Shown: positions 1 to 18,900 of the stretch, in pieces
Position numbering within the stretch: the first letter of the stretch is position 1
Layout of the letters: the number at the start of each line of letters is the position of its first letter
Virus record (IMG/VR): IMGVR_UViG_3300017753_000124
Span: 1-22,479 of that record
From: a virus
Length of the DNA stretch: 22,479 nt
Strand: one strand, 5' to 3'
Notes under the pieces: model-generated
Seen by the model: only the letters and a program-made list of their open reading frames with translations
Databases searched by the model: none
What the model was told of the DNA's origin: nothing
Made by a program: the position numbers and the translations under genes

Positions 1-169
1 AAAGCAACATGATGATAGAGAAAAAAACTATATTGAAGTTATGTTGTCAAGTGGTGGTAGTTTAAGTTACGAAGATGTAATGAATATGCCAGTTCCTGCA
101 ATTCAGCTTTTTGTTGAAGTTATTAACAAAAGAGCAGAAGATCAGAAGGCATCATCCCGTAGGCGCTAG
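1..169 (+). CDS. 3' fragment of a gene, possibly a gp26-like baseplate hub assembly protein
   Basis: The reading frame starting at base 2 is open to a TAG at 167-169, giving the last 55 residues of a protein whose start lies left of the window. The fragment is charged and looks helical, with a segment SYEDVMNMPVPAIQLFVEVI followed by a basic Ser/Arg tail. An 'MP' followed by a helix and a charged tail recalls, by eye only, the C-termini of T4 gp26-type baseplate hub assembly proteins. That assignment is a guess. Its stop overlaps the stop of the convergent minus-strand gene: the palindrome CTAG at 166-169 gives TAG on both strands. No terminator hairpin is visible at the junction, so transcripts from the two sides probably run into each other. 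Confidence 0.5.
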   Translation, partial: KQHDDREKNYIEVMLSSGGSLSYEDVMNMPVPAIQLFVEVINKRAEDQKASSRRR

Positions 170-603
170 CCTACGATTGATTTATAATAATCTTCTGGCC
201 AACTATCGTAATAAGATGTACTGTGTAAGTAAGCACGTTTTTCTTCAAGATCCCCACGCAATTGTATAAACACACAATCCTGGAAATTTTTAGCAAAGTG
301 TCCACTATCTTTTGTACTAATAAAATATAATAATTCTGGATTTTCTTTATGCATGACTTCAAGCATATCTGGAATACTATCTACATCATTCCCTTCAATC
401 CACGCAATACCTATTTCGTATTTGGTGTCATCAAACTCTCGAAATTTTTCTAAAGATAAATCTCTGGCATCAATAAATTGTATTTTGCCTTGTAACCTAG
501 CCTTACGGGCAAATGGGCAAATAGGAAATCCGCTATCTCTTTTTGCTTCGATAACGTTAATAGTCCAGTCTATAAACTGTTCTTGGAATTGTTCAAATGT
601 CAT
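166..603 (-). CDS. Hypothetical protein with a CPFA motif, under a late promoter
   Basis: I do not recognise this protein with confidence. The frame can be extended to a TTG at 631-633, but the ATG at 601-603 is preferred, giving 145 residues. The TTG sits in the loop of a hairpin and has no ribosome site, while a weak GAGTG lies about 11 bases before the ATG. The protein is soluble and acidic, without signal peptide or membrane segment. It has a CPFA motif at residues 29-32 followed by basic residues, a middle with several acidic stretches, and a Tyr/Trp-rich end (SYYDSWPEDYY). The N-terminal W...CPFA layout faintly recalls the DUF1415 family, too weakly to name it. It is transcribed leftward, opposite to the baseplate genes, from its own TATAAATA late promoter. 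Product made late in infection; role unknown. Confidence 0.75.
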   Translation of the reverse strand: MTFEQFQEQFIDWTINVIEAKRDSGFPICPFARKARLQGKIQFIDARDLSLEKFREFDDTKYEIGIAWIEGNDVDSIPDMLEVMHKENPELLYFISTKDSGHFAKNFQDCVFIQLRGDLEEKRAYLHSTSYYDSWPEDYYKSIVG

Positions 604-625
604 GGTATTTTTTTCACTCAGAAGG

Positions 626-641
626 ATCACCAAATGGTGAT
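626..641 (-). other. Hairpin near the 5' end of the late transcript for the 166-603 gene
   Basis: ATCACC at 626-631 and GGTGAT at 636-641 form a perfect 6-bp stem with a 4-base loop. If transcription starts about 6 bases after the TATAAATA box at 650-657 (near 644), this stem-loop begins about 3 bases into the mRNA, ahead of the ATG at 603. There is no U-tract on either strand, so it is not a terminator. A 5' stem-loop of this kind could stabilise the message. The structure is read by eye; its position relative to the start is inferred. Confidence 0.45.
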
Positions 642-649
642 GTTATAGT

Positions 650-657
650 TATTTATA
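650..657 (-). promoter_or_regulatory. T4-type late promoter, TATAAATA
   Basis: The minus strand reads TATAAATA, an exact match to the T4 late -10 element recognised by the gp55 sigma factor, which needs no -35 box. It points at the gene ending at 166, with a predicted leader of about 40 bases. gp55 is encoded in this window, and two relatives of this box (GCTAAATA at 5547-5554, GATAAATA at 12434-12441) share the TAAATA core. Confidence 0.65.
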
Positions 658-667
658 AGTCCTTAAT

Positions 668-684
668 AATGCTCTTCGAGCATT
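668..684. repeat. Inverted repeat upstream of the late promoter
   Basis: AATGCTC (668-674) and GAGCATT (678-684) make a 7-bp stem with a three-base loop, a compact terminator-like hairpin. It is followed by AAAACTTCTT on the plus strand and ATTATTAAGG on the minus strand, so neither side has a proper U-tract. It could end leftward readthrough from the gp55-gp46 operon, but that is weakly supported. A second small stem, AAAGC/GCTTT at 695-708, lies beside it. Confidence 0.35.
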
Positions 685-739
685 AAAACTTCTTAAAGCT
701 ATCGCTTTACTCGTTTTGAATTGTTTACATTAATAGTAT

Positions 740-1220
740 CGAATTTTTTTTATGGTTTAATAATAATGAATGGAATAAATTATTTTTAACTTTAACCTGA
801 AGTTTAATCACACTATGCCTGGTTACGGCATAGCATGAAGAAACAAATAGACTTTAACCGTCATTATCACCCACATCACAGTAACAAACCTTAAAGGGGA
901 GGCGGTTGAGCTGTACCTCTATTACATGTTGCTTTTTCAGCACGGGTATCGATATGTAGCCACTGTGACGACAGCATATCACCCATCAAGTTCCAAGTGT
1001 CAGGAGAGCTTGATCATTTTGTAAACTGTTTCCAGATTACCAACTATTGAGACAATACAAACGTTTCTTACACAAAGGGTAGACGTTTAAGCATCCTGCG
1101 ACTAACAGGGTAGTGTATTGAATTAGGCCACCAGAATAGCCCTTGCTTACCGTCACACATCAGAACGGATTCAGCGACACAATTATAGCCGGCGTGTCAA
1201 CCTTATGCTGGTTTATTTTT
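740..1220 (+). ncRNA. Candidate structured non-coding RNA of unknown family (boundaries approximate)
   Basis: Within the 609 bases from 604 to 1212 I see no convincing gene on either strand, which is unusual in so compact a genome. By my count 901-1200 is about 44% G+C, higher than the flanking genes. Inverted repeats follow one another: 813-819/827-833 (7 bp), 985-990/1009-1014 (6 bp with three further inner pairs), 1059-1064/1083-1088 (6 bp), 1093-1098/1106-1111 (6 bp), 1150-1153/1165-1168 (4 bp), and a terminal pseudoknot. The 1093-1111 stem and the pseudoknot contain G-U pairs that would be A-C mismatches on the other strand, favouring a plus-strand RNA. No tRNA, tmRNA, RNase P or group I intron signature was recognised. 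The 5' end is unknown; TTTACA at 724-729 is only a weak -35 candidate. Confidence 0.4.
1176..1220 (+). terminator. Potential H-type pseudoknot followed by a U-rich tract
   Basis: Stem 1 pairs GACAC (1176-1180) with GTGTC (1194-1198). Stem 2 pairs AGCCGGC (1187-1193) with GCTGGTT (1207-1213), with two G-U pairs. The stems interleave with no base between 1193 and 1194, a 6-base first loop and an 8-base last loop, which is workable H-type geometry. Stem 2 alone, followed by TATTTTT (1214-1220), also reads as an intrinsic terminator for a plus-strand transcript. The two stems could also be alternatives. The U-tract overlaps the antisense of the last codons of the GIY-YIG gene. Confidence 0.4.
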
Positions 1221-1650
1221 GAGAATTGTGTTGGAAAGATTCTTTTAGAGCTTTTGATCCGCCTACACGGACGTTTATAATGCCATTGTAATAGTCATCT
1301 GTTAGTAATACTTCTCTATCAAACTGTTCTTTTGCTTCTAAGTATGATAATTGGCCTCTGGTGGTACAATAATATAATATTTGTTTTGTGAATTTTTGTT
1401 CGCCTAAGTTTTTTATATCTTCTAGTAAGTGTTCCGATGAGCCCCAATAATCGCGCCAATCACTTTCAACAGTGGATCTGCGTTTACGTTTTTTGCCTTT
1501 TAGCGGTGGTTTTGTTTTTTTGAATTGCCCGAGCTTTTTGCCAATGTATTTTTTGCCATTAATAGTATTTGTGATTAGATAGACGAATCCTATACAACCT
1601 TCCGGAAGTTGCTGTACTTCTTTGCCTTCATAAGTCCATGGAGTCGTCAT
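1213..1650 (-). CDS. GIY-YIG family endonuclease (free-standing, Seg-like)
   Basis: This 145-residue protein carries the GIY-YIG nuclease fold. GFVYLI is at residues 21-26 with YIGKK at 35-39, the expected spacing of the two tyrosine-bearing motifs. A Lys/Arg-rich stretch at about 44-59 probably contacts DNA. WRDYWGSS is at about 65-72, followed by a helical segment with the likely catalytic glutamate at E105 (YLEAKEQ) and conserved-looking asparagines near 122-126. The family cuts DNA using a divalent metal; in T4-like phages such genes are often free-standing homing endonucleases of the Seg type. Whether this one homes or has a DNA-processing role is unknown. It starts at the ATG at 1648-1650, inside the end of the upstream small gene (23-base overlap), with only a poor ribosome site, so it is probably translationally coupled. 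It is the last gene of the leftward operon. Confidence 0.85.
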   Translation of the reverse strand: MTTPWTYEGKEVQQLPEGCIGFVYLITNTINGKKYIGKKLGQFKKTKPPLKGKKRKRRSTVESDWRDYWGSSEHLLEDIKNLGEQKFTKQILYYCTTRGQLSYLEAKEQFDREVLLTDDYYNGIINVRVGGSKALKESFQHNSQK

Positions 1651-1819
1651 CTAATAGTTTATTGATTTTTATCGCAATGTCAACACTTAATTTTTTACCT
1701 GTGGTGTCAACTGGTGTTGGTACAAGCTGTCTCATACCTGGTGGGTCTCCTTGCCGGCGCTTGTATATTTTTTCGCCAACTCTTTCGTAAATATAATCTT
1801 GCTTATTATTAAGCGTCAA
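1628..1819 (-). CDS. Small conserved-type protein of unknown function (TTG start)
   Basis: A 63-residue basic-to-neutral protein lying between gp46 and the GIY-YIG gene. No alternative ATG lies near the 5' end. The TTG at 1817-1819 follows a strong purine-rich site (GAGGTGGAG) by four bases, supporting it as the start. It overlaps the end of gp46 by 11 bases and the start of the endonuclease by 23, so the three are locked into one operon. The N-terminal half is charged (YERVGEKIYKRRQGDPPGMR), the middle has a proline-threonine turn (VPTPVDTTGKK), and the end is a short acidic helix. No family recognised. The tight overlaps on both sides make it a real gene rather than a chance frame. Confidence 0.7.
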   Translation of the reverse strand: MTLNNKQDYIYERVGEKIYKRRQGDPPGMRQLVPTPVDTTGKKLSVDIAIKINKLLDDDSMDL

Positions 1820-3584
1820 CTATCTCCACCTCAGTATTATAAGTTGTAAATCCGTTTTCCTTTACAACCTGTAATACACTGTTTACCCGTCCAACAAGTT
1901 CGTCGCGATGCGAGATAAGCAGGATATTTTTATCACGCTCTCTCTCCATTTTTTTAAGTACACCTAACGCACTTTCAACTCCGATAGTATCCATGCCGCT
2001 ATCAACAAGTTCGTCAATACAAACCAAGTTAATAGGATGATTCATACTTTCAAATACATCACGAAATGCCCAACTAAGTCCTAGTATAAGTCTGTTGCGC
2101 TCACCACGTGATAAGTTATCAAAGTCTAAGTCTTGTCCAAGTTGGACAATACTAACTGTTAAGTCACTTTGGAATTGCACTTCGTGTGGCAACCCAAGTT
2201 TAGTAATGTAATACTCTAAACGATTGTTAAGGAATTGTAGGTTCTGTTCAATAATCTTTTTGCGAATAAAACTATCTTTGTTTGTTAATAGTTTTAGCAA
2301 AAATTCCTGATGATCTTTTAACTCTGTAAGTCTGTTAACTTCTTCCCACTGTACTTCTTGTAGTCCAGTTTCTTTGAGTGTTTTAATTTGATCAACATAT
2401 GGATTCTCTTCTACTTTTTTAGACTCTAAAGTAGTGTTGTTTGAATCTATTTTACTTTGATGCTCATATGCTTCTTTGATTGTATTATAATGCAAAGAAG
2501 GAGCCGCCCCAAGTCCCCCTAATTCGTTTAATGCTTCTCTATATTCATTTATCTGATCAGTGTCAGAAGTAATGTGTCTTACTGACTCTTCTACTAATTC
2601 TGTCTTTTGTGCTACAATCTTTTCGTGTTGATCATCATGTAGCTCTTGTCCACATGCATAACATTTGTGTTGTAGCGTAGTATCTAAGTCTTTTTGTGCT
2701 TTATCTAAACGCTTTTGTTCACGCTCGATGCCAGTAGTAAGTTTAGCAATCTCGCTGTTTAACACGTCTATTTGTGTACGCTTATTGTTAAATTCTTCAA
2801 ACTCAGCATGTGCTTTAAGTTCTTTTTCAATGTCAACTGAATTTAAGTTTACATTTTCACGTTCTAGATATTCAATATCTGATTGTAGTTTTTCCTGCCA
2901 AGTACGCTCACGCCGCTCCAAGTCAGAAATACTTTTTTCAATACGTTGATTTGCTTCTTCAATACCTTTAATACGATATGTTTCTTCTTGAATACTATCT
3001 TTACTATACTTTACAAGCTCTTTTAAAATATCAGCTTTTTCACTAAGTTGTGTAATACCTAGTAATTGTTCAATCATTTCACGCTGATCATTTGCTCGCA
3101 TGCTCAAGAAAGGTTCAGTATAAGTGTTCAGTGCCACAACATGCTTAAACATTGTGTGGCTCATCCCTAATACTTTTTCGATAGCATGTTGGCTAAGTTT
3201 ACCTTCTCCCTGCATTTCGTCAGTAATATCATCAGAACTGTCAATATTATTAACCATGTATTTGAAAACATTTGGTTTGCGTCCTCGCTCAATACGATAC
3301 TCCATACCATCTTTTTCAAACTCAACAGTAACTAACATCTGTTTATTGTTAGTTTTATTGATTAGATTATCTTTTTTAATGTTATATAATGCATTACCAA
3401 ACAATGCAAAGCTCAGTGCATTAACAATAGTAGTTTTACCTGTACCATTACGTGAACCATCGCCACCCAAATCAATATTGTTACCCAACACAAGTGTGAG
3501 CCCATGATTATCAAAGTGTACAGCCTGTGTTACATTGCCAAAACTCATAAAGTTTTTAACAGATATATTTTTTATTTTCAGCAT
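1809..3584 (-). CDS. gp46: gp46 recombination endonuclease subunit (Rad50/SbcC-type ATPase)
   Basis: With gp47 this forms the phage Mre11-Rad50 complex, which resects DNA ends to start recombination-dependent replication and helps degrade host DNA. The 591 residues hold the whole SMC-like plan: a Walker A motif in GSRNGTGKTT (residues 43-52), coiled-coil arms at about 185-305 and 315-450, a zinc-hook CYAC at 308-311 between them, the ABC signature LSRGE at 491-495, Walker B NLVCIDE at 519-525, a D-loop DSGMD, and the switch histidine in ISHR at 557-560. The length is close to T4 gp46 (about 560). It starts at the ATG at 3582-3584, one base after the gp47 stop, so translation is probably coupled. 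All key motifs look intact. Confidence 0.97.
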   Translation of the reverse strand: MLKIKNISVKNFMSFGNVTQAVHFDNHGLTLVLGNNIDLGGDGSRNGTGKTTIVNALSFALFGNALYNIKKDNLINKTNNKQMLVTVEFEKDGMEYRIERGRKPNVFKYMVNNIDSSDDITDEMQGEGKLSQHAIEKVLGMSHTMFKHVVALNTYTEPFLSMRANDQREMIEQLLGITQLSEKADILKELVKYSKDSIQEETYRIKGIEEANQRIEKSISDLERRERTWQEKLQSDIEYLERENVNLNSVDIEKELKAHAEFEEFNNKRTQIDVLNSEIAKLTTGIEREQKRLDKAQKDLDTTLQHKCYACGQELHDDQHEKIVAQKTELVEESVRHITSDTDQINEYREALNELGGLGAAPSLHYNTIKEAYEHQSKIDSNNTTLESKKVEENPYVDQIKTLKETGLQEVQWEEVNRLTELKDHQEFLLKLLTNKDSFIRKKIIEQNLQFLNNRLEYYITKLGLPHEVQFQSDLTVSIVQLGQDLDFDNLSRGERNRLILGLSWAFRDVFESMNHPINLVCIDELVDSGMDTIGVESALGVLKKMERERDKNILLISHRDELVGRVNSVLQVVKENGFTTYNTEVEIVDA

Positions 3585-3585
3585 A

Positions 3586-4608
3586 TTAATTTAAACCATT
3601 ATAGATGGAGATAAGAACTTCATTTTTGACAACCTCGCTGTCAATAGTAGTAAGTTGATTAAGTACAATTTGATCTACATTTTCTACTTCTATCTCTGCA
3701 CCCTTACTCCAGTCTTGTGCGTGTTCTTCTTTTTTACTAGGCAACAAACTTATCTCTCTCAAATCATATTGCTTTAAGAAAGTTTCCTTGATAAAATTTG
3801 CCTCTTCGTAAGTAATACCTACATCAAGGGTAATCCTACAGTGTGTTTTATTCGACAATACTTCTTCAGGATTGTCAATCAATTTAGATAAATTTAGTGT
3901 TCTATACTTTGGAGCATCTGGCCAATTTACAAACTCAGGCTCTTGTCTCCATTTCAAAAATGTAATACCACGATCGTCATCCCATGCATCAGCATAGTTG
4001 TGTGGAAAACAATTTCCTGGATAAATGATATTTCCGCGAGTTTGTCTTTTATGAAAGTGTCCACTAAAAACTTTTTCAGCTTTACGCAAATCGTCTGGCT
4101 TTAATCCATGTCCATGATCTGGCATTTGTACCATCGCATTCATAAAGAAGTGTGGTAGCTCAAAATGTCCAAATATATATTTGACATTGAGTTCTTTTAA
4201 TTTTTTATGTTCATCTTCTACAAGCCATGGAACAAATGCACAATCATCTTCAACTAACATTCCATCATTAATCATTCTAATGTTAGGATATTTGTCAACC
4301 ATTGGAACACTGTGTATTTCTCGCTTTTCTCGATAATACAAATCATGGTTTCCTGTAATCATAATAACTTCATCAAATGAGTCATTTAATCGTTGTAAAT
4401 TACTGGTTGTATAATTTAGTGTACTAACATTGATGCTGGCACGATTATGATGCCAATCACCTAAAAAGAGACATTTTTTAATGTTTCTTTTCTTTGCTTC
4501 TTCTATCATCCAAATGATAAATTCTTCACAATCAATGTTGTGAATTCGTGAGTTATTTTTCATACCGAAATGAATATCGGTAAAGATTACTGCTTCATCA
4601 AATAACAT
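3586..4608 (-). CDS. gp47: gp47 recombination endonuclease subunit (Mre11/SbcD-type nuclease)
   Basis: This is the metal-dependent nuclease partner of gp46. The 340 residues match T4 gp47 (about 339) and keep the calcineurin-like phosphoesterase motifs: DIH at 11-13, GDWHH at 50-54, GNHD at 86-89, GHFE at 147-150 and GHFHKR at 183-188. These supply the two-metal site and the catalytic histidine. The region after about 230 is probably the capping and gp46-binding part. It lies 7 bases downstream of the gp55 stop and one base upstream of gp46, so the two subunits are co-transcribed and probably made in step. Nothing is missing or out of place. Confidence 0.97.
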   Translation of the reverse strand: MLFDEAVIFTDIHFGMKNNSRIHNIDCEEFIIWMIEEAKKRNIKKCLFLGDWHHNRASINVSTLNYTTSNLQRLNDSFDEVIMITGNHDLYYREKREIHSVPMVDKYPNIRMINDGMLVEDDCAFVPWLVEDEHKKLKELNVKYIFGHFELPHFFMNAMVQMPDHGHGLKPDDLRKAEKVFSGHFHKRQTRGNIIYPGNCFPHNYADAWDDDRGITFLKWRQEPEFVNWPDAPKYRTLNLSKLIDNPEEVLSNKTHCRITLDVGITYEEANFIKETFLKQYDLREISLLPSKKEEHAQDWSKGAEIEVENVDQIVLNQLTTIDSEVVKNEVLISIYNGLN

Positions 4609-4615
4609 GTTTTAA

Positions 4616-5479
4616 CTATGTGTCCTTGGTATCTTCTTCAGTTTCAGGGGGTTTTTCAGATTTTAAACGCTCTTCCCATTCAGCATTAAATGTACGGGTA
4701 AAGCTAGGGTTTAATCCGCCTTCTTCCAACAAATCATCTCTAATGTTCTGTCCTCTTTTTTCTAGATTGAGAACTCTAGTAAAGCTGTTGTTTATAGCGG
4801 CAGTATAATATGCAAATGGATTTTGCGACTTAACTTCGTTAAATTGTAAACCAATTTGTGTTAATTGTAACAATGCTTGTCCACGCATTTCATCTACATA
4901 TGTGTAACCTCGCCAGTTACTTTTCATGCTATACCTATGGCATAACATCATATACATTCTTGCCAAACGATCATTTGTAGTACCATGTGATACACTAAAA
5001 TGTCCGTTACCAAGTCCACCTTCCCAATGACTACGTGCTACTTCTTTCCATTCGTCCTTTACTTTAGCAATATGCTTAAAGGGAGGAAAGTTGCACTTAG
5101 CATGTCTGTCTGCTTCTGTCTTTGGATTAGTTTTTCTTTGCTCTTCTGGAACATGATCAAATGTCATAATCCTAATTACAATTTCTTCATCAAGTATTGT
5201 TGCGGGATCAACAACAAAATCAGCACCTCTAGGTTTGGTTTTACGCTCAAGTTCTCCACGTTCCCATTTTTTAACCTGTTCTTCATGTGCTAATTTTTGC
5301 ATTCTAGATGCACGATTTTGCTTTGCCTCTGCAATATGCTCGTCAGTTATCTCCTGATCCTCTTCCAAAATTAGGTCGAAGTAGTGATATTTGTCGTCCA
5401 TTACATAACAATAGCTCATTTTGCTGTTGTGTATCTCTTTTAATAACTCTTTATTAGATAGATAGTGATTTCTTGCCAT
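4616..5479 (-). CDS. gp55: gp55 sigma factor for late transcription (enlarged)
   Basis: A divergent sigma70-family factor that redirects host RNA polymerase to TATAAATA-type late promoters. Two blocks match T4 gp55. The N-terminus (YLSNKELLKEIHNSK, residues 6-20) resembles T4 YVNNKELLQAI. Residues about 168-250, a sigma region 2-like helical block with SNWRGYTYVDEMRGQAL and QNPFAYYTAAINNSF, match T4 FNFSGYTQSWKQEMI and KNPHAYITQ. The protein is 287 residues against 185 in T4. Most of the extra length is a charged insert at about 25-160. The C-terminus is acidic (ETEEDTKDT) and does not show the SLDFLYE-like clamp-binding end of T4 gp55. The start is ATG 5477-5479, after a good AGAGGA site at 5487-5492. 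It is the first gene of the leftward operon. Confidence 0.88.
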   Translation of the reverse strand: MARNHYLSNKELLKEIHNSKMSYCYVMDDKYHYFDLILEEDQEITDEHIAEAKQNRASRMQKLAHEEQVKKWERGELERKTKPRGADFVVDPATILDEEIVIRIMTFDHVPEEQRKTNPKTEADRHAKCNFPPFKHIAKVKDEWKEVARSHWEGGLGNGHFSVSHGTTNDRLARMYMMLCHRYSMKSNWRGYTYVDEMRGQALLQLTQIGLQFNEVKSQNPFAYYTAAINNSFTRVLNLEKRGQNIRDDLLEEGGLNPSFTRTFNAEWEERLKSEKPPETEEDTKDT

Positions 5480-5486
5480 AGATTAG

Positions 5487-5492
5487 TCCTCT
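5487..5492 (-). promoter_or_regulatory. Ribosome binding site of gp55
   Basis: The minus strand reads AGAGGA ending 7 bases before the ATG at 5479, the clearest Shine-Dalgarno site of the leftward operon. With the predicted start near 5496 the leader would be only about 17 bases, nearly all of it this site. Confidence 0.65.
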
Positions 5493-5502
5493 GATTAAAC
5501 TT

Positions 5503-5531
5503 AATCTAACACTATTTTGTTAACGTGTCAA
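5503..5531 (-). promoter_or_regulatory. Sigma70-type promoter for gp55-gp47-gp46 operon
   Basis: On the minus strand a perfect -35 box TTGACA (5526-5531) is followed by exactly 17 bases and a -10 box TAGATT (5503-5508, four of six matches to TATAAT). Predicted initiation is near 5496. This is what a host polymerase would use early in infection. It lies back to back with the plus-strand late promoter at 5547-5554. Confidence 0.75.
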
Positions 5532-5546
5532 CCGGTATTTTTCCAG

Positions 5547-5554
5547 GCTAAATA
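5547..5554 (+). promoter_or_regulatory. Late promoter of the baseplate operon, GCTAAATA
   Basis: GCTAAATA shares the TAAATA core with the T4 late box TATAAATA. Predicted initiation is near 5560. That leaves a leader of about 12 bases holding GGAG at 5561-5564 before the ATG at 5572. It heads an almost unbroken run of plus-strand structural genes. Confidence 0.65.
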
Positions 5555-5571
5555 CCTATAGGAGAAAAGTC

Positions 5572-6195
5572 ATGCGTATTGATGAAGTAATATTAACAGA
5601 AGCAAAAGCAAATCGAGTTATAGCAATTATGCCAGGTGGATTTCATCCGTTTCATCCTGGGCATAAGAGTCTATATGATTGGGCGTCTAAAACGTTTGGG
5701 CAAAGCAACGTATATGTTGCGGCAACATCAGACGTTAGTACGAGACCATTCCCTTTTGATATTAAAAAGCAATTAGCATCAATGGCAGGCGTTCCAGCTG
5801 AAAGATTTATACAAGTCAAATCACCATTCAACATGCGTTCTTATGCAGATATTTTAGATAGTAATACTGCACTAGTATTTGTACGCAGTGTGAAAGACAA
5901 GGGCGAAGCGCCTATGCCAGACCAAACTAAAAAGAATGGTGAGCCAGGCTACTTACGCACTTACACAGGAAAAAATACACGAACATCAGACGAGATGGGT
6001 TATATGGCATACGGTCCAACTATCAACTTTAACTTTGGTGGCATGAGTATAAAAAGCGCAAGTGAACTAAGAGCCGCATGGCCTAACATGGGTGAAGAAG
6101 AAAAATTAAAAGCTGCACAATTAATGTACGGCAATGGTGCACCAAAAGCAGTACAGCTATTGGATCAAGCACTAGGCAATGGGGGACAGGAATAA
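5572..6195 (+). CDS. Nucleotidyltransferase with probable capsid-targeting leader
   Basis: A 207-residue protein of the HxGH nucleotidyltransferase superfamily (NMN adenylyltransferase and cytidylyltransferase type). MPGGFHPFHPGHKSL at residues 20-34 holds the nucleotide-binding HPGH (28-31), and GMSIKSASELR at 157-167 resembles the second signature ISSTxxR. These enzymes transfer a nucleotide from an NTP to a phosphorylated substrate; the substrate here cannot be told. The first 11 residues, MRIDEVILTEA, closely match the T4 internal-protein leader MKTYQEFIAEA. They place a gp21 protease-type site (LTE|A) after residue 10, as in T4 IPII and IPIII, so the enzyme may be packaged in the head and injected. 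It is the first gene after the late promoter, with a good GGAG site at 5561-5564. Its stop directly abuts the next ATG. Confidence 0.85.
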   Translation: MRIDEVILTEAKANRVIAIMPGGFHPFHPGHKSLYDWASKTFGQSNVYVAATSDVSTRPFPFDIKKQLASMAGVPAERFIQVKSPFNMRSYADILDSNTALVFVRSVKDKGEAPMPDQTKKNGEPGYLRTYTGKNTRTSDEMGYMAYGPTINFNFGGMSIKSASELRAAWPNMGEEEKLKAAQLMYGNGAPKAVQLLDQALGNGGQE

Positions 6196-6801
6196 ATGAG
6201 CGGTGGTATTAACACAAGCCAAAGAACCACGTTAAGAACAAAAGGTTCAAGTTTCAACTATGATGGAATATTATCTCCTCTCAATTTAGATCGAGGAGTT
6301 GTGTTCCCTTATACACCTGTGATTAACATTGGACACTCGGCAAACTTTGGACAATATGATATCACACACGGAATTTACCAGCCAAATTTTTATGTAAATA
6401 CTCCTAACCCACAGATAGATATGACATGTACATTTACTGCTCAGGATATAACAGAAGCAGAACACACAGTAGCATGCTTACATTTTTTTAAAGCGGTAAC
6501 AAAAGGTGATTTTGGAGAAGCATCCAGAGCCACTACAGCAGGCACACCGCCTCCAGTACTTCTCTTTAGCACATATGGTAGTGCAACAGCGCAAAACGTT
6601 CCTGTTGTTTTGCGTTCATTTAACTATACATTGCCAGATGATTTTGATTATGTTACTGTTGAGACTGCCGCAGGACCACAAACTATACCAACACAAATGA
6701 TGGTTGCAATTAGTTTAATTCCACAATACGCACCGACAAAAGTTAGAAAAAACTTCAACATACAAGATTATAGAAGTGGCAGAGCTGGAGGATTTATGTA
6801 A
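6196..6801 (+). CDS. Tail-tube/baseplate junction protein (gp48/gp54-like)
   Basis: A 201-residue structural protein resembling, from memory of the family, the baseplate tail-tube cap proteins of marine T4-like phages. Features are a FPYTPVINIGHSANFGQYDITHG block at about 37-59, the NTPNPQIDMTCTF strand at about 68-80, a helix TEAEHTVACLHFFKAVTK, a PPPVLLFSTYGS strand pair, and a late PQYAPTKVR. The repeated long beta strands around one helix suit a tail-tube fold. In T4, gp48 and gp54 sit on the baseplate hub and start tube assembly. T4 gp48 and gp54 are longer (about 364 and 320), so this is a compact form, and which of the two it replaces is uncertain. It starts on the ATG immediately after the upstream TAA and overlaps gp53 by one base (TAATG). 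Confidence 0.75.
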   Translation: MSGGINTSQRTTLRTKGSSFNYDGILSPLNLDRGVVFPYTPVINIGHSANFGQYDITHGIYQPNFYVNTPNPQIDMTCTFTAQDITEAEHTVACLHFFKAVTKGDFGEASRATTAGTPPPVLLFSTYGSATAQNVPVVLRSFNYTLPDDFDYVTVETAAGPQTIPTQMMVAISLIPQYAPTKVRKNFNIQDYRSGRAGGFM

Positions 6802-7082
6802 TGAAATTTAGATCAGATAGCATGTATAGGAATACAAAGGTTGTTAACAGTAAATATTTGGATATCATGGATCCAATTATTGATAATGTTGCATCTTTTC
6901 CAACTCGCTCATTAAAAATTACAGCTAAACAAGATAGGCGCCCAGATATATTAGCACATGAACTTTATGGAAACGCCAAACTATGGTGGGTATTTGCAGA
7001 GTTCAATCCAGATTCTCTGAACGATCCTATTGTAGATTTTACTGCCGGAAAAACTATCATAGTACCAACAAGGTTCTCATAA
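6801..7082 (+). CDS. gp53: gp53 baseplate wedge protein
   Basis: At 93 residues it is about half the length of T4 gp53 (196), but it keeps the recognisable core: DILAHELYGNAKLWWVFAEF at about 50-69, then NPDSLNDPIVDFTAGKTIIVP, a LysM-like segment typical of gp53 relatives. gp53 is a wedge component that T4 adds late, enabling wedges to join around the hub. The first half (PIIDNVASFPTRSLKITAKQDRR) gives a strand and the turn leading into that core. The ATG overlaps the previous stop by one base, and the next gene begins two bases after its stop, fitting tight translational coupling in the baseplate operon. Confidence 0.85.
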   Translation: MKFRSDSMYRNTKVVNSKYLDIMDPIIDNVASFPTRSLKITAKQDRRPDILAHELYGNAKLWWVFAEFNPDSLNDPIVDFTAGKTIIVPTRFS

Positions 7083-7083
7083 A

Positions 7084-9894
7084 ATGGCACAAGGCGACAG
7101 ACGACGACAGGCTCCAAGGAGCGTAAGAAATAATAATCCAGGAAACATCAGAAATAATCCTAACTTTACATGGCAAGGACAAACTGGCGTAGACTCTGGC
7201 GGCTTTGCTGTCTTTGATACACCAGAAAACGGCTCAAGAGCTATGGCTAGGTTATTACAAAATTACCAAGGCGATGGTACTGATGCAAACACAGTTAATA
7301 AAATTATTCATCGCTGGGCACCTCCTAACGAAAATGACACAGGGCGTTATGCACAAGAAGTAGCAGATGCGATGGGCGTTGGTGTTAATCAACCAGTTGA
7401 CTTATCTAGAAATCCAGAATTACAAGCTAAAATGATGGACTATATGACTCAAAAAGAAGGTGGGGCTAGAGCGCAAAGTTATTTTGAAGATAGCCATTCT
7501 GTTGGTATTGGAATGCAAAACGGAACAGTCACGTCAGCAGAAGCAATTGCACAAGCAAACGCACAACGGGTACCAACTTCTCCTAGACCAGAAATGTCAG
7601 ATGGTGACAGAGAAAGAATAGCACAAATTGATGAAGCAATAGAAAACAATTTGATTTATCAAAATGCACAAAGAGAATTAGCAGCAGACCAAGCAGCTTT
7701 TGATGAAGAGTTCGGAGCAACACATAATCCAGATGGCACTGCTAAAGTTGCAGGAGTAGATGATTTAGACTTTGGTAGACCAACTGGAGACGAAGAAGGC
7801 GATCCTTATAACTTTCAAGGTGCAGCATCATCAGTAGCAATATTAGAAGCAGAAAAGAAACAAATACAAGACAGACTTGCCGCAGAGCAAGCGGCATGGG
7901 ATGAACAAAATGCTGGTGCAGGAGATGCAGACGATGAGGTTGAAGAAACCATTGGAGCAGAGGATCCTGATTTAGCAGACGAATTTACCGATCAATTTAA
8001 TGCAGGTGCCGAAGACGCAATCGTGGAAGGACCTGATCCTGTTGAGCGTTCATATTCAGATGTAGTAGTTGAAAATTGGATGACTCAAAATGATCTAACA
8101 ACATACAAATGGACATTTTATCTTGTTAAGTCAAATATTTGGAATCAACCAACAGTATTAGAAAATGACGACAGTGTAACTAGACAAGGTGATGCAGTTG
8201 TAATAGCTGAAAGCGGTGTTGAGACTGCCTTTGCTATTGAAAATATGTTAATGCTGAGTAAACTTGTTGGTGGTACAGGTGCAGTTGGAACATTCCAATT
8301 TGACTTGTATGAGCCATATGGATTTACATTTATGGATCGGTTAGTAAAACTACAACCAAATTTTTATGGACAAATGGGATTGCAAAGTGCATTATTTGTT
8401 CTTAAATTGGAATTTTTAGGAAGAGATCCTGACACTGGTGTAGAAGTAAAATGGCCAGGAAAGAGTTTTTTCTATCCTTGTACAATACGAGAAATGAAAG
8501 GCAATGTTGATGCTAGCGGTAGTAGATATAATATTGTGGCTTTCAATACAAAACAAAGTGCAGAAGCTAATGTTACAGTTGTAACTGATATTAAGTATAC
8601 AGATGTTGGTAATGTAGAGAGTTTAGCATCCTCATTACAGACAGCATTAAATGAACATGAAAACGATATTAGGAATGGTGGTAGAGATCCTGCAGATATC
8701 CCACCAAATGCCACTGCTCAACCTATTAAGCAATGGGAAATTATATTTGCGCCAAGTGCAACAGGACAAGAGTTTAATTTACCCAAAGCCGCATTCAGTA
8801 GTACTGAAGATCAAGCTATGGCTGCAATGCTCAGTGCAAGTAATGAAGATCCAAATCTAAGAGATGGTACTGTTGGTAATAATACAAATATGAAAGTATT
8901 TTTGGAAAGATTAATAACAGCTAACGTTCCTGAGTTTGCACGTTTTGCAGCAGAGCATCGTGAACAAGGATACAGAGTTCCATATATACATGTTGACACA
9001 AACACAGTAGTTGGTGATGGTGTAGACCCAGCAACAAATAATAGACAAGCAACAGAACAATTAATTGTTGAGATTAAATGGACTTATACTAATATTAATA
9101 ATGATCCGGAAATTGCCAGACAACAAGCCACAAATCCAACATTCCAAAATGGAAGATTTGATGACTTGCCAATTAGCAAAGTGTATAGATACCTGTACAG
9201 CGGAGAGAACACACAGCTAGTTAATTTTGACTTGACATTTGATACATATTTCTTTAATGTTAGAGATCCAGGACTAGCTAATACATATGCAGAACCATCT
9301 GGAGTTGTTCACCCTGGTGCAGGAGTAGTAAGTAATAATACATCAGCACCAAGAGATATTGTTAATAGTGGACCTATCGGACAAGTTAGAGTTGGTAGAT
9401 TTTTAAGCGACATTAAAGTTGATCAAGATGACATGGCGATACAAATACCAAGTTATGGCTTTGCTGCTTTAGGTAGTGCAGCACAACAAGTGTCAGACAT
9501 TAAAAATGGAAATGTTGATACAGTGGATGCGGTTCGTGATGCGGCACTTGTTGGCAGAGACATGGATTTTATGACTGCTAGTTTTGAAATAGTTGGCGAT
9601 CCATTTTGGATGGGTGCGCCGGGTGCAGTTATAGCAGGAGATCAAGACTTGCTAATTGAATATGCAGATGCAGATACAATGATTGTTTTCATTAATTACC
9701 TAGGTAAAGAAGAAATGTATGAAGCTGGATATTCAGGCAAAGCAGATATGGATCTTGTTAGTAGCGGAGTATATAGAATTACAGATATTGAAAGTAAATT
9801 TAGTCAAGGACAATTTACACAAATCCTAAAAGGATATAAAGATACAAGAACAACACCAAGTATTGTTAAAAACAAACTGGAGAATATTGGATGA
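7084..9894 (+). CDS. Large baseplate hub protein, gp27-like, with N-terminal lysozyme-like domain
   Basis: A 936-residue protein of three parts. Residues about 12-130 form a phage lysozyme/transglycosylase-like domain with RNNNPGNIR at 15-23, GGFAVFDTPENGSRAMARLL and RWAPPNENDTGRYA at about 77-90. Residues about 165-325 are acidic, Ala/Glu/Asp-rich and partly coiled-coil, a linker. Residues about 325-936 look like the beta-rich hub domains, ending IEYADADTMIVFINYLGK...VYRITDIESKFSQGQFTQILKGY. This resembles in layout the end of T4 gp27. Position between gp53 and the gp5-like spike supports a gp27 role, since gp5 and gp27 bind each other in T4. The gp27 link is inferred from position and fold style, not close identity. 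The product would hold the spike and may help breach peptidoglycan. Its stop overlaps the next ATG (ATGA). Confidence 0.72.
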   Translation: MAQGDRRRQAPRSVRNNNPGNIRNNPNFTWQGQTGVDSGGFAVFDTPENGSRAMARLLQNYQGDGTDANTVNKIIHRWAPPNENDTGRYAQEVADAMGVGVNQPVDLSRNPELQAKMMDYMTQKEGGARAQSYFEDSHSVGIGMQNGTVTSAEAIAQANAQRVPTSPRPEMSDGDRERIAQIDEAIENNLIYQNAQRELAADQAAFDEEFGATHNPDGTAKVAGVDDLDFGRPTGDEEGDPYNFQGAASSVAILEAEKKQIQDRLAAEQAAWDEQNAGAGDADDEVEETIGAEDPDLADEFTDQFNAGAEDAIVEGPDPVERSYSDVVVENWMTQNDLTTYKWTFYLVKSNIWNQPTVLENDDSVTRQGDAVVIAESGVETAFAIENMLMLSKLVGGTGAVGTFQFDLYEPYGFTFMDRLVKLQPNFYGQMGLQSALFVLKLEFLGRDPDTGVEVKWPGKSFFYPCTIREMKGNVDASGSRYNIVAFNTKQSAEANVTVVTDIKYTDVGNVESLASSLQTALNEHENDIRNGGRDPADIPPNATAQPIKQWEIIFAPSATGQEFNLPKAAFSSTEDQAMAAMLSASNEDPNLRDGTVGNNTNMKVFLERLITANVPEFARFAAEHREQGYRVPYIHVDTNTVVGDGVDPATNNRQATEQLIVEIKWTYTNINNDPEIARQQATNPTFQNGRFDDLPISKVYRYLYSGENTQLVNFDLTFDTYFFNVRDPGLANTYAEPSGVVHPGAGVVSNNTSAPRDIVNSGPIGQVRVGRFLSDIKVDQDDMAIQIPSYGFAALGSAAQQVSDIKNGNVDTVDAVRDAALVGRDMDFMTASFEIVGDPFWMGAPGAVIAGDQDLLIEYADADTMIVFINYLGKEEMYEAGYSGKADMDLVSSGVYRITDIESKFSQGQFTQILKGYKDTRTTPSIVKNKLENIG

Positions 9895-11105
9895 GCGGTT
9901 ATAGAAACACTAACATAAACAACATGCCAGGCAGAGTACAGCAGGGCGGTAGAGATGGTGTGAATACCATTGCTGGAGTGTATCCAGCAGTTGTTGTAAA
10001 AAATAATGATAGTACGATGATGGGTAGAATTGAAGTTCGTATACCAGAATTTGGAAACCCAACATCAAAAGCAACACGTATGATATCATTAGTTTCTCCA
10101 ATGGCTGGTATTAATAATTTACCAAATGTTGAAGATGATTATAAAACTGATTCGGGTACCGCTAGTAGTTACGGTATGTGGCCACAACCTCCAGCAGTTG
10201 GTACAGAAGTATTAGTAGGATTTAGTAGTAGCCGAGAGGAAGGCTTTTATTTAGGCTCGTTTATGAGCAAAGACAGAAATAGCATGATGGGCGGACATGC
10301 AAGTACTGAAGCATATGATCCAGATACTGGAGAATCAAGTTTTGGTCCAACACTAGAAAAAAACCCAAATGACGGACAGGACTCAACTACTAGACCTATG
10401 AATAGCTTTAATGATGCAAAGTTAAAGCAACAAGGACTTGCAGGAGATCTTGTACGTGGACACAGTCAAAGTACAGCTAGAAGAGAATCTCCAAGTAAAG
10501 TTTTTGGTATGACTACAGCAGGCGGACATGTATTAACAATGGATGATGGCGCCGCTGATGGTAGCGGAAGTCAAAATATTAGAATCAAGACTATGAGCGG
10601 AGCTCAGATACTAATGGATGATACTAATGATTTTATTTTTGTTTCCAATAGCACAGGCAGTGCATATATTGAAATTGACAGTGAAGGAAATATTGACATG
10701 TATAGTGCTAAAAATGTAAGTGTACATGCAGAAGAAGATATAAACTTCCACTCAAAACAAAATATTAACATGCAAGCAGACCAAGGAGTTAATATCAAAA
10801 GCACAGGTGCAGAAGGTATAAAAATGGAAGCAAGTGTTGGCGGCATACACCAAACAGCCAAAGATATATGGTCAGTAAAAGGACTTACATCAAACATCAC
10901 AAGTAACCATCACAAAGAGACAGCAAGTAGGATTGACATGAATGGTCCTACAGCAACTATACCTACTGAAATTACAATGCAAAGTCAAGTAGCAAATAGA
11001 AATATCTTAGAGAGTGCAGCTAGTCGTGTTCCAGAACATCATCCTTGGCAAGGTGTAACTGCGGTACAAGAAAGATTTAAAACAGGTGAAGGAAATATTA
11101 CATAA
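9891..11105 (+). CDS. gp5: gp5-like tail spike (OB-fold plus beta-helix), lacking the lysozyme domain
   Basis: This 404-residue protein begins with a gp5/VgrG-type OB-fold domain at about 26-130 (GVYPAVVVKNNDSTMMGRIEVRIP, then PPAVGTEVLVGFSSSREEGFYLGS). A glycine/asparagine-rich linker spans about 131-205, containing RRESPSKVFGM at about 197-207. It then enters repeats that suit a triple-stranded beta-helix at about 210-320 (GNIDMYSAKNVSVHAEEDINFHSKQ and following), the membrane-piercing needle. T4 gp5 (575 residues) has a lysozyme domain between these parts. Here nothing like it is present and the length is short by about that amount. A separate GH24-like gene follows directly, overlapping the stop by one base. 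The protein should form the trimeric spike beneath the hub. Confidence 0.85.
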   Translation: MSGYRNTNINNMPGRVQQGGRDGVNTIAGVYPAVVVKNNDSTMMGRIEVRIPEFGNPTSKATRMISLVSPMAGINNLPNVEDDYKTDSGTASSYGMWPQPPAVGTEVLVGFSSSREEGFYLGSFMSKDRNSMMGGHASTEAYDPDTGESSFGPTLEKNPNDGQDSTTRPMNSFNDAKLKQQGLAGDLVRGHSQSTARRESPSKVFGMTTAGGHVLTMDDGAADGSGSQNIRIKTMSGAQILMDDTNDFIFVSNSTGSAYIEIDSEGNIDMYSAKNVSVHAEEDINFHSKQNINMQADQGVNIKSTGAEGIKMEASVGGIHQTAKDIWSVKGLTSNITSNHHKETASRIDMNGPTATIPTEITMQSQVANRNILESAASRVPEHHPWQGVTAVQERFKTGEGNIT

Positions 11106-11833
11106 TGGCTGACATTACTTTACCAAATAAACTTACCGATAAAGACTTAGTTGAATTTGAATTATTTACAGTAAAAAATTCAGAATACGTAAACAATCAG
11201 ATCCCATTAAAAAATTTAGAGGCTAGTGAAGAATTATTAAACTTTATGCTTCGTCAAACACAGTGGCGAGGATACAGTTATGTGGTTCCTGGAACCACTA
11301 CTACTCTTATTGGATACGGCACTAGTGAAAATTTAAATTCAATATCTGGATTAACAGAAAGCCAAGCATATAGTGATTGGATTTCTAAAGTAAAAAATAG
11401 TGAAAAAAAATTAAAAAGACAATTCCCTCTTGACAAACTAACACAATCACAGTATGATGGACTAGTGAGTTTATTCCACACTACTGGTAGTTTCACGAGT
11501 GTTGGCTCTGATGTTAGGAAGTTCCAAATTGGTAATTATATCAAACAAGAGGAATGGAATTATGTTGCCACTGCACTAATTAATAGTGGTACTAACAGAG
11601 CAAGGCGCCAAGCAGAAGCTAAGATTATTATGCTAGGCGACTATGGAATTTACAAAGATAGAAGTCTAATGAAAGAGGCAGGCATACAGGATATTAGACA
11701 ACAATATCCAGACGGCTTTGCAACAACAGTATCTAAAAAACAAGCAGAAGTGGTATACTATGCTGAAACAGGATTGTTCCTACCACAATTAACTATGTCT
11801 AGAATGAGAGAATTAGTTAAGTTAAATAGCTAA
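11105..11833 (+). CDS. GH24 (T4 lysozyme-like) domain protein with degenerate active site
   Basis: A 242-residue protein whose residues about 45-185 follow the GH24 lysozyme plan: LRQTQWRGYSY...TTLIGYGT at 49-73, LTQSQYDGLVSLFHTTGSF at 112-130, and a final NRARRQAEAKIIMLGDYG at 164-181. In active members the first block reads as a catalytic Glu followed by Gly, then Tyr-x-Asp, then T-I-G-Y-G. Here the Glu position is Thr or Gln (51-53 region) and the Asp position is Val or Pro, though the IGYG turn is kept. The fold is probably retained and catalysis lost, or rebuilt with other residues. About 40 N-terminal and 60 C-terminal residues lie outside the domain. Sitting right after a gp5 that lacks lysozyme, it may be that domain split off as a structural subunit. 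Confidence 0.78.
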   Translation: MADITLPNKLTDKDLVEFELFTVKNSEYVNNQIPLKNLEASEELLNFMLRQTQWRGYSYVVPGTTTTLIGYGTSENLNSISGLTESQAYSDWISKVKNSEKKLKRQFPLDKLTQSQYDGLVSLFHTTGSFTSVGSDVRKFQIGNYIKQEEWNYVATALINSGTNRARRQAEAKIIMLGDYGIYKDRSLMKEAGIQDIRQQYPDGFATTVSKKQAEVVYYAETGLFLPQLTMSRMRELVKLNS

Positions 11834-11856: not shown

Positions 11857-12411
11857 TTGCCCAGTGTCTTATTATTAAATGCAGATGCTCAACCACTAAG
11901 TTACATGCCTTTGAGCACCATTAGCTGGCAGTCAGCAGTAAAGGCAATATTCCAACAAAAAGCCAAAGTACTTGCAAACTACGAAAATAAATTTTTACGT
12001 AGCGCAAACTTTTCTATGCCACAGCCAAGCATTGTTATGCTACATGCATATCACAAGCATCCAACCAAAGCAAAATTTACAAGACGTAACTTGTATATTA
12101 GAGATAACTTCCAATGTCAGTATTGTGGAGACAAATTCCATTACGGCGATTTGACTATAGATCATGTTATACCTAAATCACGAGGCGGCAAGTTAACCTG
12201 GGAAAATAGTACCTCTGCATGTATGCCATGTAATGTTGCTAAAGGTAAACGTATGATTAATCCATTATCAAAACCTCACAAGCCAACTTGGCATGAAATT
12301 AACAATGCAGCAAGGAATTATAAGCTATCAATTCCAGATCCAGCTTGGCAGGACTACATTAACTGGCCAGAAGAGCTTTTATCTATAAATTTGCTTCCTG
12401 AATACACTTAA
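11857..12411 (+). CDS. HNH endonuclease (TTG start or frameshifted ATG)
   Basis: A 184-residue HNH nuclease of the free-standing phage type. The zinc-binding CQYC is at 87-90, IDHVIPKSRGG at 101-111 gives the metal-binding Asp-His, WEN at 115-117 gives the central Asn, and CMPCNVAKGKR at 122-132 gives the second CxxC and third catalytic position. The N-terminal MPSVLLLNADAQPL is typical of this family. Such genes cut DNA and are often mobile; here it interrupts the baseplate operon between the GH24-like gene and gp25. The frame opens with a TTG at 11857-11859, ten bases after AAGGA. An ATG at 11852 sits at better spacing but in another frame that stops after eight codons. Loss of two bases in the TTTT run would join that ATG to this frame. 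Confidence 0.9.
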   Translation: MPSVLLLNADAQPLSYMPLSTISWQSAVKAIFQQKAKVLANYENKFLRSANFSMPQPSIVMLHAYHKHPTKAKFTRRNLYIRDNFQCQYCGDKFHYGDLTIDHVIPKSRGGKLTWENSTSACMPCNVAKGKRMINPLSKPHKPTWHEINNAARNYKLSIPDPAWQDYINWPEELLSINLLPEYT

Positions 12412-15913: not shown

Positions 15914-18900
15914 ATGAGCAAGTATAAAAGTAATAAGCCAACTACACCAGGTAGGAAAAAACGTGCAGGTAGCTATAAGGGTACTGAAATTAAAAGTAGT
16001 GACTTTTTACCAAGTGTTTTCCAAACTAACGTAAATAAATCATGGCTTAATGCAACCTTTGATCAAATGATTAGTAAATCAGATCTTAAAGATATTGATG
16101 AGCTAGTTGGTACAAGGGATGGCAGATACTTTGATAAAAATGACATTTATATGACAACATCTGAACATGATGTACGTGGTGTAAAGCAATTTGAACCAGC
16201 AATTGTAAGTAGAGACAAATCAAAAAATCTAACTAACCTTATAGGCATAGACGATATTTCAAACTCTATAAATGTTGATTTTGATCAATATAATTATAAT
16301 GCCGCTTACCAAACTCGTGCTTCAACATTCTTACCACCGATTGATGTTGATAAATTTATTAACTATGGACAATATTATTGGATAGAAAACTTACCAGTAT
16401 ATGAAAGTTTTAATACAAATATCACATATACAAACGTTGTAAGTGAAATTAATGGTGAGATTGAATATACATTCAAAGACGATGAGAATGAGTTCCCGTT
16501 AATGGATGGTATGATTATAGAATTTACCGCAGGTTATGGACAATGGGATGGCTGGCAGTTCTTAGTAACTGGTGTTGGTGATTTTATTAAATTAAGACCA
16601 TATAGATCTAACACAGGAAAAAATGAATGGAACGCACTTACATCTTACAATGGTGCAATACGAGGATACTGGGACAAGGGTGATGTTAAGCTATATGAGC
16701 GAGGTGCTATTTCTCAAGACTTATGGGATTATATTAAAGACCACAATGCAAATAAAACATTACCATTATTAAAACTTAGAGATACTGGATTAGTTAAAAA
16801 AATAAATCCTGATGGCACATCTGTAAATGGTGTAGACACATATATTAGCGGCAGAGTAATTGCTCGCTTTGATGAAGATTGGAACTTTCAAAACAGCACA
16901 GGATCATATCCTTTTGCTAAAAACTTCCAGCCTTCTAATTTAGATGAATATAAAGTGTTTATTATTGATACAGACACAGATGGTGATATTGAAGTTACAT
17001 GTATTATTGACGCAAGGCTAACTTCTAATAATGAAATAGAACAATTTATTCCAAGCAACATTAATAAAGAGTTTGCAATGATTGCAGAGAATTTAGAAAA
17101 CTATGACATCATTGGTTGGGACAACGACTTTAAACTTAATTCTGAAAAAGATTATATTGTTATTGACAGAGCAGACCCAATTGCAAGTGCATGGAGTCGT
17201 GTTAATATGTGGATACACAAAGAAGCATTATTCACTATTGCAGCAATGACAAATACATCAGACCAATATCTACTAAACAGAAAAGATTTTCAAGCCAAAC
17301 GTCCTATTATTGAATTTAATAAAAACATGTGGCTAACAAATCACGGCTATAGTGAATACAAATATGACTTTGTATGGCAGGGTAATATTGATTTTATTAT
17401 GTTAAGTAAAACAGTCGCAGAGACAGAACTTTCTGTAGGAACAACATTTGTTGTGGTTGGTGACGATAAAGTTTATGAAGTAACTGCAACAGGTAGTCAA
17501 GTAAATGCCACACTTACAGCTGGTGACACAATGTTTATTATGTCAGGCGGCATACAGTCGCTTGTTGACAAATATCAATACCAAGACGTATGGTTCACTG
17601 AAGATGGTGAATTTATGGTTGCGCAAAAAAAGAAGCGTGTAAACTTTGCACCTTACTTTAAGTTGTATGATGAAGATCAAACTTTATTATCAGACACAAA
17701 CAAATACCCTAACAGTACTGATAGAGGAAGTAAAATATTTGGATACAAACCTGGTACAGGTAAAAAGGATCCAGAGTTAAATTTTGCATTAACATATCAA
17801 GATACTGGATTTAAGGCAGAGATTGTATTTGAGAATTTTTTAGATAATACAGAAGTTACATACAGCAAAACATTATCTTCAGGAAGCCAATTGGCTGTAC
17901 AAAGTAATATACCTGGATACTATTATTACAAACAAGGCATACATTATAAGTCAAATTATCAGACAAGTTATAAGCCTATTGGATCTTTAACTGATTACCA
18001 AGTTGTTGTTAGTGACCCAAGTGTTGCATTAGAAATTCCAGTAGGTAGTGACTCATGGGAAACAAATAAAGAATTCTTATTTTATGAAGCAGACGATTGT
18101 TTTGCAGTACGTGAGCTTTATATGAAAGGTATATATCATGATTATGGATACCTAAAGCCACAGCTTATTATGCAACGAAATAAAAAATATGAATTCCATG
18201 ATCTAGTTGGCGATTTAGAAATATATGATAAAGATTATAATGTTGAAACAAACTACACAACAATTAGTTTAACAGCACCATATACATATGACATTGAGTT
18301 TGACTCAAACGCAAATGATTATTATTACTATGGTTGTCCTCATTTAGGCACTGGAAGAATTATTGTTGTTGATGATATTAATCAAGTATATCATAAACTT
18401 TATATTGATGGTAAATTTGTACCATGCAGTAAGTATACCATTACAAACAACCAAATTATTGTGCCAAGCACATTATTAGAAACTGATAGTGTAGTTGATG
18501 TACAATATTATACAAGTGAACTTCGTTACACATTGGATACTGAAATTCCAGAAGTACACAAGCACAATGCTACAAACGAAACTATTGATACTTTTACATT
18601 CAGTGAAACATTGGATCACTGGAAAAGCATTATTGAAAGTGCAGTAGAGTTTGACGGGCAAGGCGATGGTAATAATAACTCACACCGCAAGTTCAGTGTA
18701 CAAACAAATGGCGGTACAATATTTAGACATGATGATATTAGTGTAATGCAAGACATTACATTAAGTGAAGATTCATTAAATGTATCAGCTGGGCTAGTTG
18801 AACAAGGTAGAGAATGGGATAACTTTAAACAAAGATTTATTGCTCAAGTTAAAAAATTATATAAACAACAAAGTTGGTCAAGCGTTAAAGACATTGTAAA

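Follow-up and report, generated by a model that had tools for sequence, protein, structure and literature searches.

The window analysed here, a stretch of 22,479 nucleotides, comes from a giant marine phage, and one of its genes raises the question of whether an enzyme can be addressed to the phage head by a short N-terminal leader of the kind carried by the internal proteins of T4. The gene is an open reading frame at 5572-6195 on the plus strand, encoding a nucleotidyltransferase of 207 amino acids from an ATG start, with no further in-frame start upstream. The initial annotation had read its first residues as a T4-type capsid-targeting sequence followed by a gp21 cleavage site, and had proposed that the enzyme is packed into the head and injected with the DNA. 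The locus has the following features:

4616..5479, minus strand: gp55 late sigma factor (PHROG 12791, 2e-86), divergent from the nucleotidyltransferase
5548..5554, plus strand: CTAAATA, a T4-type late promoter (-10) element shortly 5′ of the nucleotidyltransferase ATG
5560..5564, plus strand: AGGAG ribosome-binding site ahead of the nucleotidyltransferase ATG
5572..5601, plus strand: putative capsid-targeting leader MRIDEVILTE (codons 1-10), ending in the gp21 motif LTE
6196..6801, plus strand: virion structural protein, the next gene of the late operon (PHROG 12050, 3e-40)
6801..7082, plus strand: gp53 baseplate wedge (Pfam PF11246 and PHROG 7145)

A start-codon artefact was rejected as the origin of the leader because the frame has a single in-frame start with a ribosome-binding site. 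A secretion signal was likewise rejected, the leader being too short, charged and devoid of a hydrophobic core.

We compared the N-terminus, MRIDEVILTEAKANRVIAIMPGGFHPFHPGH, with the leaders of T4 (record AF158101). IPIII starts MKTYQEFIAEAS and IPII MKTYQEFIAEAR, both with MKTYQEFIAEA, and residues 1-11 of the window enzyme, MRIDEVILTEA, match MKTYQEFIAE/A without gaps as the initial annotation had stated: a basic residue at 2, a hydrophobic one at 7, Leu or Ile at 8, Glu at 10 and Ala at 11. The gp21-type site claimed after residue 10 is also present, as the (L/I)xE motif LTE ends at E10 and A11 comes next. The other T4 leaders are MELITELFDED for Alt, MKTFKEFTSTTTPVSTITEA for IPI and MAKINELLRES for gp24. 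T4 gp21 cleaves after L/I-x-E; mutational work on IPIII assigns processing to residues 8 and 10 and targeting to residues 4 and 7 (PMC9026906). These targeting residues are Tyr and Phe in T4 IPIII versus Asp and Ile in the window enzyme, hydrophobic at 7 and mismatched at 4. Because the T4 Tyr4 is not conserved, a lineage-specific targeting variant would be needed in this phage; the T4 targeting residues may not apply to its lineage, since its core partner is diverged. We formulated the likeness as an 11-residue rule ([KR] at 2, hydrophobic at 7, [LI] at 8, E at 10, [AGS] at 11); in related phage proteins, 13 of 143,132 interior positions fit it, about 1 in 11,000 or about 1e-4 per N-terminus.

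In the AlphaFold model (pLDDT 86), residues 1-9 are disordered with a pLDDT below 50 and the first strand spans residues 15-21, so the predicted site sits just ahead of the catalytic fold, where the initial annotation had placed it. Behind this site we mapped the following features:

5602..6192, plus strand: predicted mature enzyme, residues 11-207 (197 aa, 21.5 kDa), a HIGH-superfamily nucleotidyltransferase
5635..5664, plus strand: GGFHPFHPGH, a nucleotide-binding GxFxPxHxGH motif, invariant in 39/39 aligned homologues
6055..6072, plus strand: SASELR, a C-terminal SxxxR-type motif, with S162, E165 and R167 invariant in 39/39 aligned homologues

By its motifs, its Pfam match (CTP_transf_like, PF01467, 1.1e-4, above cut-off) and its predicted fold, the enzyme is a HIGH-superfamily nucleotidyltransferase; PHROGs assigned it to no family, and no second (L/I)xE site occurs in the enzyme body after residue 10. 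Against the PDB, the model matches NadD-type NaMN adenylyltransferases best (probability 1.00, TM about 0.5), and PPAT appears lower in the ranking. The NadD fold match and the intact HxGH and SxxxR motifs point to a putative NMN/NaMN adenylyltransferase. The substrate is the least certain part, because the best fold match is NadD-type and PPAT matches too. An effect on host NAD pools or NAD-based defence is speculation.

If the enzyme is a head protein, it should be made late. TAAATA lies 22-30 nt 5′ of the enzyme ATG in all 18 syntenic relatives (18/18), with TATAAATACTATT in L121 and L138. The late promoter of the T4-like phage Aeh1 is CTAAATA, and those of T4 itself are TATAAATA (PMC1524935). 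With the element found in the window and in 18/18 relatives, the nucleotidyltransferase is putatively a late product. The intergenic stretch between gp55 and the enzyme (5480-5571) reads as a pair of divergent promoters, the late element on the plus strand for the enzyme and a sigma-70-like TTGACA-17-TAGATT on the minus strand before gp55; within it, GTCAACCGGT is kept across the lineage.

Next we consider the protease. PF03420 (gp21) was not found in the window record, and because this record is a 22 kb virus fragment, relatives and records that overlap it were searched as well. One of these, G018, comes from another sample; it matches window positions 1-11013 at 99.87% identity, carries the same nucleotidyltransferase gene and encodes gp21 at 20035-20664 (PF03420, 2.9e-26). 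The expectation that the genome would hold a gp21-type protease is thus borne out on a record of the same phage, and gp21 is present in 12/20 records of the window lineage. G018 also encodes a portal, a prohead core protein, gp22 (from 20664) and gp23 (from 21771), which were named by gene order and sequence features, gp21 being named by HMM. Its gp23 has LAE/T at residues 39-42 and is otherwise free of (L/I)xE.

Further genes of the window were noted in passing. The nearest isolates to its baseplate gp6 are PA5oct/GAP32-type jumbo phages (37%). An open frame at 15914-22479 runs off the window end; in the overlapping record G019 it extends to 3562 aa (G019:7829-18517) and lies directly after gp6, a candidate for a giant wedge protein. 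Positions 7084-9894 encode a 936-aa protein that joins an N-terminal lysozyme/transglycosylase-like domain with a structural virion region (PHROG 873 and 11190), and a second lysozyme-like gene lies close to it at 11105-11833. Two probable homing endonucleases are an HNH type at 11857-12411, flanked by the lysozyme-like gene and gp25, and, close to gp46, a SegE-like GIY-YIG type at 1213-1650.

We then asked how far the leader is kept among homologues, taking 80 of them at 61-100% identity and a 39-row alignment for the counts. Most of the 80 start M-x-L-R-(E/Q)-L-(F/Y)-E. The motif proved to be retained, as the initial annotation would have it: P1 is Glu and P3 is Leu or Ile in all 39 aligned homologues, with variation at residues 2, 5, 9 and 11. 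P2 is F, Y, T or K; P1′ is A in 28/39, the rest having E, G, N, D or Q, and the roughly one quarter of homologues with a residue other than A, G or S there (E, N, D, Q) count against packaging into the head. In the window's own lineage, the syntenic nucleotidyltransferases between gp55 and the structural gene are about 30% identical to the window enzyme, and their leaders (MRISDIITE/S, MLINEIINLTE/D, MIINEIIKITE/N, MLINEILKE/S and MLIEHILTE/G) all end in (L/I)xE. These leaders differ while their end is constant, and therefore divergent enzyme groups keep the protease motif and not the leader sequence. Two distant matches excepted, window-type enzymes were not found in the isolate collection.

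The history of the locus points to the same boundary. Between the window and its nearest relative, L144, gp55 is 86%, the next structural protein 72% and gp53 73% identical, whereas the enzyme is only 35% identical (partial alignment); the enzyme body is 80% identical to a marine T4-like copy in L004. Both the leader and the DNA upstream are closer to L144, the leader aligning at 22/30 nt compared with 11-14/24 to the donor type. The leader thus appears, from these comparisons, to be native to the window lineage, and the enzyme body to have come from another lineage and been swapped in behind it. The junction is placed as follows:

5597..5602 (ORF nt 26-31, codons 9-11), plus strand: inferred recombination breakpoint, coinciding with the predicted cleavage site E10/A11

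As donors, L004, L036 and L018 give best breakpoints of nt 26-31, nt 24-31 and nt 19-21, respectively. As codon 10 corresponds to nt 28-30, the exchange would lie at the predicted cleavage site or immediately before it. The permutation p value of about 5e-5 is the floor of the test, and much of the signal comes from upstream matches, which follow from synteny. Because the leader offers few informative sites, the position of the breakpoint is less certain than the swap itself.

Furthermore, the initial annotation had suggested a search for the same leader on other proteins, and in related phages this leader type is in excess: it occurs at 18 N-termini of the large related records, against about 2.5 expected from interior positions. 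A loose leader regex over whole genomes gave no excess above background, whereas tighter patterns did. In marine T4-like relatives, the leader is found in 21/67 families downstream of the enzyme versus 2/39 upstream (p = 0.001), the families being not fully independent and one of the 21 being a copy of the enzyme's own family. T7, which is not T4-type, has no match in 51 genes.

The homologues in marine T4-like relatives are often longer proteins. Their C-terminal modules, sigma-70 region 4 (1.8e-14), a peptidoglycan-binding domain (1.8e-14) and a weak match to ParB_N, were seen at L038:10001-11920, L073:9986-12946 and L011:8127-10529. A leader-tagged protein with a sigma-factor domain would be a candidate for reprogramming host transcription at injection. 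We also observed a conserved family of 170-185 aa starting like MKQFKEYLTEAKKTYPF (L093:7466-8011, L107:12391-12948, L211:7017-7529), which bears a near-perfect T4-type leader in several lineages, and NT5C-type nucleotidases in the same gene block (L066:13737-14765, with leader MRVHEIFE, and L059:11236-13260).

Evidence from virus particles comes from cyanophages. According to the available text of two reports, NMNAT-like proteins are present in the virion proteomes of S-CREM2, S-SCSM1, S-SZBM1 and S-CBWM1 (PMC10665884, PMC9602691). We compared the N-termini for three of these phages, leaving out S-CBWM1: they read MKNFSSFLTE/ADEK in S-CREM2 ORF154, MKSFLQFLKE/AAES in S-SCSM1 ORF91 and MRFRQFIIE/AVAA in S-SZBM1. 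The leaders MKNFSSF and MKSFLQF match both T4 targeting positions, 4 and 7. The same start is found on other non-structural virion proteins of S-CREM2, namely a SAM hydrolase (MKDFDSFLEE), a kinase (VKRFDAFLTE), ORF13 (MKDLHSFLTE) and ORF136 (MQTFSMFFSE). A Cas9/Csn1-annotated S-CREM2 virion protein (ORF12, L232:7704-10313, minus strand) has a CTS-like LRFASFMAE/A at residues 17-26.

Fifty-two proteins of S-CREM2 were detected by MS (Table 3 of its proteome report). A strict leader pattern, fixed post hoc, matches 4/219 S-CREM2 ORFs, and 4/4 are MS-detected (p = 0.003; 2e-4 against non-structural proteins). With the regex used first, which was set beforehand, 4/8 matches are detected (p = 0.09; 0.011 for non-structural proteins), and with a broader motif within the first 28 residues, 7/10 (p = 0.002). 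In the available text of their reports, the S-CREM2 and S-SCSM1 authors raise the carry-over of abundant proteins and do not exclude contamination (PMC10665884, PMC9602691).

The cyanophage and window enzymes belong to distant nucleotidyltransferase families (BLASTP E 0.001 over 52 residues). Because of this distance, we regard the cyanophage enzymes as parallels and not orthologues, and their virion data as support for the mechanism and not for the window protein itself. Homologues of the cyanophage enzyme in the jumbo enterophages RaK2, CRJP21 and CBB have no leader and adjoin a DNA methylase and other metabolic genes, and the copy in the cyanophage Syn1 also has none. The available text of papers on RaK2, CBB and jumbo phages does not report the enzyme in virions. 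A search of the available literature returned no relevant report of a CTS in cyanophages or on nucleotidyltransferases.

Collectively, we think it probable that the window gene encodes a pro-enzyme that is made late, packed into the head by its leader, cut by gp21, and released as a nucleotidyltransferase with the DNA. A gp55-type promoter would drive late synthesis of the pro-enzyme, and the 10-residue leader would bring it into the prohead core before DNA packaging, like the T4 internal proteins. gp21 would then cut after Glu10 in LTE/A, removing the leader and leaving a 197-residue nucleotidyltransferase of NMN/NaMN-adenylyltransferase fold in the DNA-filled head. The mature enzyme would enter the host with the DNA and there, as infection begins, probably synthesise a dinucleotide such as NAD. 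Packaging and cleavage in this phage are inferences with good support, and injection into the host is likely by analogy with T4. We consider it likely that the particle carries the enzyme and delivers it together with the DNA, because its leader resembles the T4 tag and other groups have found related tagged enzymes in cyanophage particles. For the head-packaged enzyme put forward by the initial annotation, the gp21 gene, the motif in homologues, the tag elsewhere and the tagged cyanophage virion enzymes are in agreement, and T4 Tyr4 is the part that found no match.

The best-surviving alternative, which we judge unlikely, is a cytosolic enzyme of NAD salvage or other nucleotide metabolism, in which the N-terminal extension serves structure or assembly and the protein is at most a virion contaminant. 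The active site conserved in all homologues would fit this, as would the leaderless cyanophage-family relatives beside a DNA methylase and metabolic genes in jumbo enterophages and the carry-over considered by the cyanophage authors. However, the extension is disordered in the model and variable in sequence and length, yet always ends in (L/I)xE; an early metabolic enzyme would not be expected to have a late promoter; and in S-CREM2 non-structural proteins of several unrelated kinds detected by MS (a SAM hydrolase, a kinase and hypothetical proteins) bear the tag. It is highly improbable that the leader instead docks the enzyme onto the baseplate as a tail protein: the gene does open an operon of a structural protein, gp53 and further baseplate genes, but its homologues in marine T4-like relatives sit among leader-bearing genes outside any baseplate cluster, and the invariant residues are the head protease motif (PMC9026906). 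A chance resemblance, the leader having neither targeting nor cleavage function, can hardly be credited: the motif is short and the Tyr at position 4 important for T4 targeting is unmatched, but the motif is expected at about 1e-4 per N-terminus, and enzyme groups that have diverged retain it although the rest of their leaders differs.

Under the head-packaging reading, we would class the nucleotidyltransferase as a probable internal protein of the T4 type, in which the cargo is an enzyme of a new class. It shares with T4 IPI, IPII, IPIII and Alt an N-terminal leader of about 10 residues, a basic residue 2 and an (L/I)xE end (gp21-cut in T4), and it is also non-structural, with a late promoter and with gp21, gp22 and gp23 homologues in the same phage. 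Unlike in T4, the cargo is a HIGH-superfamily nucleotidyltransferase and not an IP or an ADP-ribosyltransferase, and residue 4 is Asp and not Tyr; for the window enzyme, packaging and cleavage are predicted.

With the NMNAT/cytidylyltransferases of cyanophage virions, the window enzyme has in common an adenylyltransferase-type body and a T4-type leader; a head protease is encoded in the S-CREM2 and S-SCSM1 genomes, and the S-CREM2 enzyme gene directly follows gp55. The cyanophage enzymes differ in belonging to a distant family, in having been detected by MS in virions and, in S-SCSM1, in a long linker between leader and fold. Their leader is not mentioned in the available text of the proteome papers (PMC10665884, PMC9602691). 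The enzymes of NAD synthesis and salvage in jumbo phages (the KVP40 pathway; NMNAT-type genes of GAP32 and CBB) are likewise HIGH-superfamily adenylyltransferases; the RaK2, CRJP21 and CBB homologues of the cyanophage enzyme differ from the window enzyme in their missing leader and metabolic neighbourhood. The head and ejection proteins of phiKZ and SPN3US are also loaded into the head and trimmed after a Glu in a short motif, and many are ejected into the host. They have mostly longer propeptides (20 to more than 250 residues) and a diverged protease, unlike the window enzyme, and the available text on them describes no nucleotidyltransferase among the processed proteins.

A wider reading, on which we would put even odds, is that the leader is a portable address tag, a delivery code of marine T4-superfamily phages, behind which enzymes are exchanged with breakpoints at the cleavage site, the window being one such case. 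Its carriers would be many unrelated genes, including nucleotidyltransferases, HAD nucleotidases, a SAM hydrolase, a kinase and a Cas9-like protein, some of them in a cargo cassette; some of the nucleotidyltransferases would bear a fused domain, namely sigma-70 region 4, a ParB-like or a peptidoglycan-binding one. If this is true, the set of injected proteins could be read from a phage genome.

NMNAT-like enzymes recur in cyanophage virion proteomes, and in the available text the authors are undecided between cargo and carry-over. A T4-type leader on the cyanophage and window enzymes offers a simple reason for their presence in virions, and a single N-terminal peptide could test it. Should the tag prove to be a general code, the injected proteins of uncultured marine phages would be predictable from sequence. 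And if the proposed delivery is true, an enzyme of possibly NAD-type chemistry would arrive at time zero, when NAD-depleting defences and the takeover of the host are decided.
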